Part shown: positions 55,502 to 59,193 of the stretch, piece after piece
Position numbering within the stretch: position 1 is the first letter of the stretch
How the letters are laid out: every line of letters starts with the position of its first letter
Source: Pengzhenrongella frigida
GTDB taxonomy: Bacteria > Actinomycetota > Actinomycetes > Actinomycetales > Cellulomonadaceae
Length of the DNA stretch: 64,000 nt
Assembly: GCF_004168625.1 (NCBI RefSeq)
Contig: NZ_SDWW01000015.1
Span: 1-64,000 of the forward strand
Direction of reading: 5' to 3'
Program-made: the position numbers and the translations under genes
The notes under the pieces: generated by a model
Told to the model about the DNA's origin: nothing
Databases searched by the model: none
What the model saw: the letters and a program-made list of their open reading frames with translations, nothing else

Positions 55502-56956
55502 ATGAGTGATCCCGGCAATGGGCCTGTCGACATCTCGCCGCGCGCCGTGGTGGGACCAGACGGCGGCGCCGAACTGGTCATCGATGGCACCGTGCACCGC
55601 TTCACCGGGGTGAGCGCGGGCGAGGCCGGTGGCCTGGTGACCCAGTTCATGGCGCGCCGGGCGGCCGACGAGGGCCGCGTGCTGGCCCTGAGCATCGAGG
55701 ACCCGGACGGTGAGTGGCTGCTGAGCATCCACCCGGACGGCACCGTCGACGAGGCCGGGAGCCCACCGCCGGAGCGGCGTGGACGCCGGTCGGCCGGATC
55801 AGAGACCGAGCGGGACGCCGACCGTGCAGCAGCGCCGGACGTCGAGCCGGAGCCCCGGACCGAGTCCGATCCTGAGCCCGACGAGCAGTACCACGAGCGA
55901 GAGGCCGACTACGAGGTGCCAGACGACCGAGCCGTGACCGAGTCCACCGCACCGCTGCGTGCCGTCTCGAACCCGTTCCCGCCGAGGTTTCCGACCGTGG
56001 CGACGCCGGCGGACCACCACGAGCTCCCCACGCTCGACGACCTTCTTGCCACCCGGCCCGAGCCCCCGGTGGGTCCCGCGGAGTGGGGCTGGCGGCGCAC
56101 GCTGCGGCACCTGACGTTCGGGATCGTCGCGCCCGCGCCGGGACGGGTCGAACGGCATCACCGTGACGCGATCGTCGCGGTGCAGCGGAGCCTGGACGGA
56201 CCCAAGACGGTCGTCGTGCTCAATCCCAAGGGCGGCGCGCACAAGACGACCGCCGCACTGCTCATCGCCGCCACGTTCGGGATCCACCGAGGCGGGTACA
56301 CGCTCGCGTGGGACAACAACGAGACGCGCGGGACCCTCGGCTGGCGGTCCGCGCACGCCCGGCACGCGAACACCGCCGTGACGCTGCTGCGCGACCTCGG
56401 CCGGTTCACCGACCTGGGCTCGGCGCGGGTCGGTGATCTGGACAACTACGTCCGGTCGCAGGGGTCCGCGCAGTTCGACGTGCTGGCGTCCGACGAGGAT
56501 GCCGCGTCCGCGGCGTCGATCGACGCGGAGGCGTTCACCGCACTGCACCGCACGCTCGTGCGGTTCTACCGCGTGATGGTGATCGACACGGGCAACAACA
56601 TGCGCGCGTCGAACTGGCAGGCCGCGATCAACGCCGCCGACCAGCTCGTGATCGTGTCGACGATCCGCGAGGACACCGCGCAGTCGGCGGCGTGGGCGAT
56701 CGACGCGCTGCGGGCGTCCGGGCACGAGGACCTCGTGAGCCGCGCCGTCACCGTGCTCTCGGCCCCGGCGGCCGACGTCGACGCCAAGCTGCGTGCGCGC
56801 CTGCACCACCACTTCGGCCAGCTCACCCGCGTCGTCATCGACGTGCCGCACGACCCGGCCCTCGTGGCGGGCGGACCATTGCTCATCGAGGCGCTCCAGG
56901 GCAGCACCCGCGAGGCGTGGCTCCAGGTCACCTCCGCGGTCGCCGAGGGGCTCTGA
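55502..56956 (+). CDS. ParA/MinD-like ATPase with atypical P-loop
   Basis: 484 residues. The N-terminal ~80 residues form an unassigned beta-rich domain, then ~130 acidic, disordered residues, then the ATPase (about 235-484). The P-loop is NPKGGAHKTT at 241-250: the signature Lys243 and Lys248 remain, but the usual GVGKT is AHKT, with His247 in place of Gly. VIDTGNNMRAS supplies the Walker B-like Asp. Related proteins work with partition, pilus or type VII secretion systems; the context does not show which. An ECF sigma gene follows. Confidence 0.8.
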   Translation: MSDPGNGPVDISPRAVVGPDGGAELVIDGTVHRFTGVSAGEAGGLVTQFMARRAADEGRVLALSIEDPDGEWLLSIHPDGTVDEAGSPPPERRGRRSAGSETERDADRAAAPDVEPEPRTESDPEPDEQYHEREADYEVPDDRAVTESTAPLRAVSNPFPPRFPTVATPADHHELPTLDDLLATRPEPPVGPAEWGWRRTLRHLTFGIVAPAPGRVERHHRDAIVAVQRSLDGPKTVVVLNPKGGAHKTTAALLIAATFGIHRGGYTLAWDNNETRGTLGWRSAHARHANTAVTLLRDLGRFTDLGSARVGDLDNYVRSQGSAQFDVLASDEDAASAASIDAEAFTALHRTLVRFYRVMVIDTGNNMRASNWQAAINAADQLVIVSTIREDTAQSAAWAIDALRASGHEDLVSRAVTVLSAPAADVDAKLRARLHHHFGQLTRVVIDVPHDPALVAGGPLLIEALQGSTREAWLQVTSAVAEGL

Positions 56957-57127
56957 GTCCCGAACCTGCTGCCCGGGGTGATGCGGCGGACAGATGCGGC
57001 GGACTGATGTCGCGGGGTGGTCCCGCGGCGGACCCGACGCGCGACCGGTCCGACCGATGGTGCAAGAAGCGGCTCCGGTGCGACACAGTGCAGGTGTAGG
57101 TAGCCGCAGACCGTGGAGGAGATCCTC

Positions 57128-57616
57128 GTGCCCGCCCGCGACGACGCCTGGTTCGAGGACCTCTTTCGTGCCCATGCCACCGCGCTCTTCCGGTACTTCG
57201 TGCGCCGCGGCCCCCGCGACGACGCGGAGGACCTCACCGCAGACGTGCTCGCCATCGCCTGGCGTCGGCGCGACGACGTGCCCGACGGCGCCGAGCTGCC
57301 GTGGCTGTACCGGACGGCGGGCTTCGTGCTCGCCAACCACCGACGCAAGGGGCGACCCGTACCCGTCGGCGAGGTGCCGGACGAGGTCGACGACGCGGAT
57401 CCGGCGACGTTGGCACTCGACGACGTCGAGCTCCGCGCCATCCTGGCCGCGCTGAGCCCGCGCGACCGGCGGATCCTGCTGCTGCACGGGTGGGAGGGTC
57501 TCGACGCCGCCGGGCTCGCGGAGGTGCTCGGGATCTCCTGCGGCGGCGCGGACGCCGCGCTCTCGCGGGCCCGGTCGCGCCTCCGGGACGCCTGGTCGGA
57601 GCGGCTCGACGCCTGA
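57128..57616 (+). CDS. ECF-type RNA polymerase sigma factor
   Basis: 162 residues: region 2 (FRAHATALFRYFVRRG, DLTADVLAIAWRR) and region 4 (LSPRDRRILLLHGWEGLDAAGLAEVLGISCGGADAALSRARSRLR). GTG 57128 is set by GGAGGAG 6 nt upstream. Followed by a membrane protein that is probably its anti-sigma. GCCTGACGGGC repeats begin at its stop codon. Confidence 0.92.
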   Translation: MPARDDAWFEDLFRAHATALFRYFVRRGPRDDAEDLTADVLAIAWRRRDDVPDGAELPWLYRTAGFVLANHRRKGRPVPVGEVPDEVDDADPATLALDDVELRAILAALSPRDRRILLLHGWEGLDAAGLAEVLGISCGGADAALSRARSRLRDAWSERLDA

Positions 57617-57747: not shown

Positions 57748-59193
57748 GTGAACGACAGCACCCGCCCGTCCGAGCAGCCCGACCCGATCTTCGACCGGCT
57801 GCGTGGGGCGGATCCGGCCGCCGGCGCCGAGCCCGACCGGGCGTCGCTCGAGGCTGCCGTCCGCGCCCGCCGGGCGGACCCGGGCGACGAGCTCGCCACC
57901 GCCCGGGCGCGCCGCGGACGGGCGACCTGGTGGCCGGTGGCCGCCGTTGCGGCGAGCGCGCTGCTGTTCGGCACGGCCGGGTACGCGGTCGGCACCGGGG
58001 ACGGGGGCACCGCCGTCCCGGCCGCCGGGGTGATCACTCTCAGCCAGTCGGGCACGACCGGGACAGCCGCTCCCGAGTCGGCGATGGGCTCCGCGGACAG
58101 CAAGTTGAGCAGCTCGATGCTGGCCCCCTGGTACGGCGGCCGGACGGTGTTCACCGCTGTGGGTCTGTCCGACGAGGCCGGGTCGGCGCAGGCGTGGACG
58201 TTCGACCCGGCGCAGGTCTTCACCGCGGCGACGGCCGACCGGCTCGCCCAGGCGCTCGGCCTCGCGGGAACGGCCGTGCTCACCGACGGCGCGTGGACCG
58301 TGGGTCCGGTCGACGGCAGCGGGCCGTCGCTCCAGCTGCAGCCCGACGGCCTTGCGAGCGTGAACTTCTACGACCCGGGCCTCGACCCGTACGCGTGCGG
58401 CAGTGACCGGCTCCAGGGCGTGGAGCCGGGATCGACCGGCGACGGGGCCGCGGACAGCTCGACGGGTACGCCCGAGCCGGCGACCGAGCCCGCCCCGGGC
58501 CTCGAGCCCGAGGCGATGCCGTTGCCGGAGCCCCCGCAGACCTGCATCACGACGATCGGTCCGGCCCCGCAGGGCGATGCCGCCGTCGCGAAGGCCCGCG
58601 ACCTGATCGGGGCGTTCGGGCTCGACGCGAGCGCGTTCGAGTACGAGACCTCCGAGTCCGGCATGACTGAGCTCGCCTACGTGGCGGCCTACCAGGTCCT
58701 CGACGGCCAGCGCACCGGGTCGGTCTGGAACGTCAGCTTCGTCGGCGACGGGGTGCAGTCGCTGTACGGCTCGATCGCGCCGCTCGTCTCGCTCGGCACG
58801 TACGACGTGGTCAGTGCCACCGACGCCGTCGCGCGCCTGGCCGACCCGCGCTTCGGGGCCAGCTACGGCGGGCCGATCATGTACGCAGCGGAGCAGCGGA
58901 TCGCGGCGGGCGATGCGGCGTCGGCTCCGGACCAGGCCGAGTCGAGCATCGCGCCCGAGGTCGCCCCGGCGCCGGAGCGGACGGTTCCGCCCACGGCGGA
59001 CCCCGGAAGTGCGATCGCCTGGCCCGTCACCGAGGTCGCGCTCACCTCGTCACGGCTCGGCCTGACGATGTACACCCAGCCCGACGGTTCGACCGTCTTG
59101 CTGCCCGCATATGAGCTGACCAGCGACGACGGTCAGGTCTGGTCCGTCATGGCCGTCACCGAGGCGCAGCTGGACTTCGCCCCCGTCGGCTAG
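57748..59193 (+). CDS. Membrane protein, putative anti-sigma partner of the ECF factor
   Basis: 481 residues: ~60 cytosolic residues with a short basic helix region, one helix (61-82), and a ~400-residue extracytoplasmic part with Pro/Glu linkers and beta-rich segments. No classic ZAS zinc motif is seen in the N-terminus, so the role rests on gene order alone. GTG 57748 has GGAGG upstream. Outer part not recognised. Confidence 0.65.
   Translation: MNDSTRPSEQPDPIFDRLRGADPAAGAEPDRASLEAAVRARRADPGDELATARARRGRATWWPVAAVAASALLFGTAGYAVGTGDGGTAVPAAGVITLSQSGTTGTAAPESAMGSADSKLSSSMLAPWYGGRTVFTAVGLSDEAGSAQAWTFDPAQVFTAATADRLAQALGLAGTAVLTDGAWTVGPVDGSGPSLQLQPDGLASVNFYDPGLDPYACGSDRLQGVEPGSTGDGAADSSTGTPEPATEPAPGLEPEAMPLPEPPQTCITTIGPAPQGDAAVAKARDLIGAFGLDASAFEYETSESGMTELAYVAAYQVLDGQRTGSVWNVSFVGDGVQSLYGSIAPLVSLGTYDVVSATDAVARLADPRFGASYGGPIMYAAEQRIAAGDAASAPDQAESSIAPEVAPAPERTVPPTADPGSAIAWPVTEVALTSSRLGLTMYTQPDGSTVLLPAYELTSDDGQVWSVMAVTEAQLDFAPVG

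Follow-up and report, generated by a model that had tools for sequence, protein, structure and literature searches.

A ParA/MinD-like family with a clade-fixed histidine in the P-loop and relatives inside actinobacterial conjugation clusters

TadZ/CpaE-type proteins are MinD-like in fold and have a Walker A motif that departs from the standard, and the partition proteins SopA and P1-type ParA are ATPases that bind the nucleotide and hydrolyse it. We confirmed that the SopA gene in the plasmid F sequence encodes Tyr directly before the P-loop Lys, and the P-loop of PDB 3ez9 (molecule 'ParA') reads KGGVSKT. In the available part of PMC9178275, the deviant Walker A consensus of the superfamily is given as KGGXXK[S/T], and Table 1 of that source lists KGGVYKT for SopA and RGGVGTT for BcsQ. 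Previous studies of StbB and VirC1, as far as the accessible text of PMC3098194 and PMC4949242 goes, describe both as ParA-like proteins that are required for conjugation and for polar placement of DNA, so that a positioning role of this kind has precedents. A literature search, with subscription papers mostly outside its scope, found no mention of GGAHKT or DUF6668 and no description of a GGAHKTT family; SCO6880 was likewise absent from the papers listed for it, and a protein of the GGAHKTT kind is not mentioned in the available portions of PMC12857230 and PMC9513070. The available portions of PMC7439463 are silent on BcsQ as a precedent for ATP binding by a degenerate MinD.

The window analyzed here is a stretch of 64,000 nucleotides from Pengzhenrongella frigida (positions 1 to 64,000 of contig NZ_SDWW01000015.1, forward strand), and the gene in question occupies 55502-56956 on its forward strand, with a coding part at 55502-56953, a stop codon ending at 56956 and an intact frame for a ParA/MinD-like protein of 484 aa. 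The ATG at 55502 is backed as the start by a relative (L004) that aligns from residue 1, and the gene is present once in its own genome. A structure model built from a 42-sequence alignment (mean pLDDT 76.9) shows an N-terminal module predicted with confidence, then an acidic linker predicted to be disordered, and finally the ATPase domain. The compact N-terminal alpha/beta module spans residues ~10-86 (55529-55759) and was delimited from structure models and a profile match described below. It is followed by the acidic low-complexity linker at residues ~87-171 (55760-56014), which had been noticed in an earlier note made from these letters alone; the linker exists, being legible directly in the sequence and modelled at pLDDT mostly <50. 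Alignment then defines a conserved pre-ATPase segment, LPTLDDLLATRP...GWRR..., at residues ~172-231 (56015-56194), in which L178, D180, R185, G196 and G207 are invariant (alignment A1), and the ATPase domain itself takes up residues 232-484 (56195-56953).

The ATPase domain has the ParA/MinD fold according to both VIA-align and Foldseek. By VIA-align it matched 3ea0, a ParA-family ATPase, with Z 23.9 over 235 aligned residues (rmsd 2.7), and E. coli MinD 3q9l and Soj 1wcv each with Z 22.9, and many MinD, Soj and FleN structures were among its fold matches. The best family-library matches were NCBIfam NF041546 ParA_partition (23.8 bits against a curated cut-off of 180) and, likewise below their cut-offs, Pfam AAA_31 (14.8 of 27 bits) and CbiA (16.3 of 25.4 bits). 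Since all Pfam and NCBIfam matches are sub-threshold, no model in either library describes the GGAHKTT family, and AAA_31 matched every one of the 42 aligned relatives when E values up to 0.1 were accepted. Sequence searches of the PDB, by single sequence and by profile, returned no more than brief segments of ParF/ParA around the P-loop (E ~0.01-0.03).

The deviant Walker A motif reads NPKGGAHKTT (residues 241-250, 56222-56251), with GGAHKTT starting at residue 244, which is the replacement of GGVGKTT that the earlier note had pointed out. His247 (codon CAC, 56240-56242) replaces the Gly that immediately precedes the P-loop Lys, the last Gly of KGGxGK. When one genome per species was scanned, 215 coding relatives were obtained, and among the best 80 of these 215 His is found at position 247 in 77, the exceptions having Thr (L042), Ser (L073) and Cys (L081); close homologues therefore carry His, and not the normal Gly that would have pointed to a local mutation or error. 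Of 109 KGGAHKTT loci, 104 encode the His by CAC and 5 by CAT. Across 179 rows pooled from overlapping collections, position 247 is H in 114, G in 36, A in 12, N in 11, T in 2, R in 2, S in 1 and C in 1, and the P-loop Lys is lost in two rows (L217, GGAGTTT; L135, GGAGRTP). The former is the Kitasatospora plasmid member (L217:11368-12783, forward strand), which keeps the Gly.

A tree of 99 rows at <86% identity, computed by a quick method with the P-loop columns excluded, places 45 H, two T, one S and zero Gly in a single 48-row clade (SH-aLRT 95), so that the divergent subfamily with an unusual loop, one of the possibilities raised earlier, gains support from a His that is fixed in its clade. 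Ala rows form their own clade (8 rows, SH-aLRT 99), as do Arg rows (2 rows, 99), and Asn and Gly rows are intermixed in one clade with KTP motifs. As the H, A and R clades are separate on the tree, distinct lineages fixed distinct residues, and ten residue changes at this position, Gly included, are distributed across it. More distant relatives retain Gly, and because long branches join in several places and the method is quick, neither the branching order among these distant Gly relatives nor a Gly ancestry is secure. The other ParA/MinD-type P-loops of the own genome, compared for the 16 of 18 matching loci with a motif shown (several loci repeat one gene), read KGGVGK[T/S] or, in a single case, KGGVGTT, and every one of them has Gly at this place. 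A MinD-like protein on contig 104 (L230, ~63647) reads KGGVGTT, with Lys changed to Thr, and is perhaps of the TadZ/CpaE kind.

Within the 48-row His clade 72 of the 288 columns examined are invariant, and in all 48 rows the same residues are found in the P-loop (N241, K243, G244, G245, K248, T249, T250), in switch I (D271, N272, N273, E274, T275, G277, T278) and in Walker B/switch II (D362, T363, G364, N365, N366), the last of which reads VMVIDTGNN (residues 358-366, 56573-56599) with the Walker B Asp at 362. The signature Lys (K243) and the P-loop Lys (K248), which had been described as remaining, are thus kept throughout, and KGGAHKT fits the deviant Walker A consensus together with its signature Lys. 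The active-site residues are among the best-kept of the protein, which indicates a site under selection and not one in decay, since a site that was losing its ligand would not stay among the best-kept parts; a decaying site was therefore rejected. It had also been expected that His247 would crowd the phosphates. As a general rule this expectation is not supported, because the consensus as given in the available part of PMC9178275 leaves the position free and SopA has a bulky Tyr and 3ez9 a Ser at the same spot, so that crowding does not follow from the His itself. By analogy with these proteins, ATP binding is probably kept despite His247.

A stronger departure from the norm than His247 is found in switch I, DNNETRGTLGWR. 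The rebuilt Walker A'/switch I, WDNNETRGTLGWR (residues 270-282, 56309-56347), is nearly invariant in the alignments and replaces DxDPQGN. In one register the second Asp of a Soj-size ParA aligns with Asn273, and in the other register, in which hhalign pairs EGNDPQGT of SopA with DNNETRGT, the SopA catalytic Asp aligns with Glu274, so that the correct register decides whether the catalytic acid is missing. Switch I has changed within the family too, given that KGGVGKTT relatives at ~25-35% identity mostly read DANPD here. Judged from the sequence, altered hydrolysis is possible, and the rebuilt switch I would be a better argument for it than His247. Small actinobacterial plasmids or contigs (L214:18328-18945, L220:15775-16689, L158:5462-6085) were also seen to encode partition-type ParAs in which the residue preceding the P-loop Lys is Ala, Phe or Ser (KGGSAKTT, KGGVFKTS, KGGSSKTT) while DPQG is normal.

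Five annotated plasmids carry the family gene inside a type IV secretion cluster, namely those of Mycetocola (L214), Microbacterium (L215), Cryobacterium arcticum (L216; its plasmid pP27867_2 encodes a MOBP relaxase), Kitasatospora (L217) and Pseudarthrobacter (L220; its plasmid pC is typed as conjugative). A SCO6880 protein is present in all five clusters, most of the five plasmids have ATP/GTP-binding, TraM-recognition or conjugative-transfer proteins plus M23 peptidases, and the gene order in L214-L216 is DUF6668, HTH, family gene, small hypothetical protein, M23 peptidase. Integrated members, too, occur within such clusters. Among the best 80 loci, at least three type IV markers accompany the gene in seven (L023, L037, L043, L047, L054, L072, L076) and two, at a distance, in L069; the neighbours of L054, for example, matched SCO6880_fam (3.1e-170), VirB4-like (2.1e-08), TrbC/VirB2 pilin (4.6e-05) and M23 (6.7e-14). 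Zero type IV markers were seen in 87 of 97 His loci from two overlapping collections, an absence that is soft because the marker profiles are lineage-bound, having been built from 4-33 sequences of the same loci, and the flanks are short in some loci. L172 appears to come from the same genome as L023, and genomes of the best-80 set may recur elsewhere in the wider set.

Relatives with Gly, Asn or Arg are conjugation-linked as well, with at least three markers in L153, L154, L155, L159 and L167 and one or two in L157, L158, L160, L168 and L170, so the linkage is not tied to His. For a Clavibacter relative (L219, 36.7% identity) no such cluster was found within the 16.8 kb covered. The family has a match in 389 of 72,556 plasmid records and, at E <= 0.001 and with distant matches counted, in 215 of the 394 genomes that represent the class. 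A GGAHKTT member was also seen in a human-gut record named 'Bacteriophage sp.' (L218:6864-7829); this record could be a plasmid or an integrated element under a wrong label. The DUF6668 proteins beside the family gene in the conjugation clusters (L214:4912-5397, L215:12570-13187 and L216:12570-13184, all on the reverse strand) read GVHGGAGEST or GAHGGAGETT, a P-loop-like stretch that has Glu in the position of the Lys, and may be a degenerate partner; that the two form a heterodimer is an idea only. No DUF6668 match was obtained in the own genome, but control genomes were equally without a match, so this negative does not establish absence.

The N-terminal domain, which had been left unassigned, can be assigned as a shared module. 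In the model, residues 1-89 are predicted to form three strands, a helix and three strands, and the profile of this module matches an FHA-domain protein three genes downstream of the family member in L214 (hhalign probability 96.7), with the module also present in the same-position proteins of L072, L076 and L215; two or more proteins encoded in a single conjugation operon therefore use the module. Its fold stays unmatched, with no Foldseek match at E <= 0.001 and no VIA-align Z >=5 (best 4.8, ZrgA), and such an absence of matches is not evidence of a new fold. A profile search of 22,452 ORFs in 226 records gave 193 domain matches, nine of which lack a ParA-like P-loop by our own pattern. One open frame of 616 aa (L166:3-1850, reverse strand) carries the module twice, likewise without a ParA-like P-loop by that pattern.

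The window copy is solitary and, like most chromosomal copies, lies outside any type IV cluster. A cold-shock-like protein, recognised by eye, is encoded upstream, and downstream on the same strand are an ECF sigma factor (57113-57616; Pfam Sigma70_r4_2, 1.1e-12) and a protein of 481 aa in which, judged by eye, one segment probably spans the membrane (57748-59193; no Pfam or NCBIfam match), with no parB among these adjoining genes. In 37 of the best 80 loci, nearly all of them from Cellulomonas or Actinotalea, the gene has the sigma factor beside it on the same strand, and the membrane protein is present in nearly all of those 37. In seven of the 37 (L005, L006, L010, L012, L027, L049, L079) the pair lies upstream and not downstream, so the adjacency outlived a change of order. 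Cryobacterium has two other fixed chromosomal settings of the gene, and 69 of 150 genomes of the window's taxonomic family hold a match, distant ones included. It looks as though chromosomes captured the gene more than once and then kept it vertically. The only SCO6880 locus of the own genome, on contig 42 (L222), is of another lineage and not near the window gene. The MinD-like protein of that locus (L222:13993-14829, reverse strand) reads GCLPQAGATS, without the P-loop Lys.

Several explanations of this protein have to be weighed. Sequencing error, local mutation or a pseudogene, with a practically negligible chance of being correct, was rejected on the His common to 77 of the best 80 relatives, the open frame and the strong conservation. 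A pseudo-ATPase, in which the ParA/MinD fold would be kept as a scaffold with no productive use of nucleotide and in which His247 and the altered switch I would mark the loss, deserves more attention: seven residues other than Gly (H, A, N, R, S, T, C) occupy position 247 in different rows, the tree has ten changes there with Gly included, the P-loop Lys is gone in L217 and is Arg in L135, the Asp of DxD would be Asn273 in one register, and neighbouring type IV secretion proteins (DUF6668, GGAGEST; the L222 protein) are P-loop-like without Lys. However, the His clade keeps nearly all other residues of the P-loop, of switch I and of Walker B unchanged throughout its 48 rows, which a lost ligand would not lead one to expect, and SopA tolerates Tyr at the same place in the available text of PMC9178275, so we consider a pseudo-ATPase unlikely, if still credible.

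An ordinary type Ia partition ParA of the SopA kind, left behind by a plasmid in the chromosome, would account for the non-Gly P-loop residue in common with SopA, for the pairing of the two switch I stretches and for the plasmid annotations that label relatives 'chromosome partitioning protein ParA'. The hhalign probability to SopA is only 40, however, the N-terminus is predicted to be an alpha/beta module and not the helix-turn-helix of type Ia, no parB adjoins the window gene, and L214, L215, L217 and L220 (L216 being covered in part) each have a second ParA-like or AAA ATPase annotated at another place, with ParB annotated on L214 and L215. The absence of an adjacent parB, the N-terminus and the other ParA-like ATPases led us to reject a partition ParA as the main reading, which we hold to be very improbable. 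In Cellulomonas and Actinotalea, the protein might instead work with the ECF sigma factor and the membrane protein as an envelope-response switch unrelated to conjugation, and the same-strand adjacency that survives the move of the pair upstream is in its favour; but copies in Cryobacterium, Actinoplanes and elsewhere have different neighbours, adjacency inside one bacterial family may be plain synteny, and intergenic gaps of 157 and 132 bases do not make a tight operon. We regard such a switch as rather doubtful.

The reading that we prefer, and to which we give about an even chance, is a ParA/MinD-fold family whose mobile members have a positioning or docking role in conjugative type IV secretion and whose window copy is a domesticated host gene. 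Mg-ATP would still be bound and dimerisation would proceed through Lys243; His247 and the DNNE switch I may slow or retune hydrolysis and would not abolish binding; and the N-terminal module and linker could tether the protein to a partner. By analogy with VirC1 and StbB, mobile members would place or dock the DNA-transfer machinery, and the window copy, solitary and vertically kept, was probably recruited to a host role beside the sigma factor and membrane-protein pair. Against a positioning role, the majority of His members lack type IV secretion genes as neighbours, and the only SCO6880 locus of the own genome is not near the window gene; against retained function, hydrolysis is doubtful, with one register putting Asn273 at the Soj-type catalytic Asp, and the family tolerates damage at the site, as the two members without the P-loop Lys indicate. 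Further, we speculate, and think it distinctly improbable as a whole, that a P-loop Gly given up several times together with a rebuilt switch I makes a slow ATP-bound latch, perhaps with the Lys-less DUF6668 protein, and that chromosomes repeatedly captured the solitary gene, maybe for policing incoming conjugative elements or for positioning envelope machinery.

The family, which is without a name, widespread in the class and found on many actinobacterial plasmids, merits a name, and a working ParA/MinD site cannot safely be defined by KGGxGK. Should the positioning role be correct, the family would provide a component that has been missing from Gram-positive type IV secretion. Moreover, the residues at the P-loop position (H, A, N, R, S, T, C, G) form a natural series for testing the job of that glycine.

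Among the described systems, VirC1 of the Agrobacterium Ti plasmid and StbB of plasmid R388 likewise belong to the ParA/MinD family and are linked to conjugation, and the StbB group also varies the deviant Walker A motif, in the accessible parts of PMC3098194 and PMC4949242. We liken our family to them by role and context and not by sequence, and its hosts are actinobacteria and its window copy is solitary. BcsQ shares a MinD fold and a non-standard Walker A (RGGVGTT in the available text of PMC9178275), but there the signature Lys and the P-loop Lys are changed and not the Gly, and the operons are other ones. SopA shares KGGxxKT with a bulky Tyr before the P-loop Lys and a switch I stretch of similar length, and given SopA, the His alone would not surprise a specialist; SopA differs, however, in its partition role with SopB, its N-terminal helix-turn-helix and its canonical DPQG.
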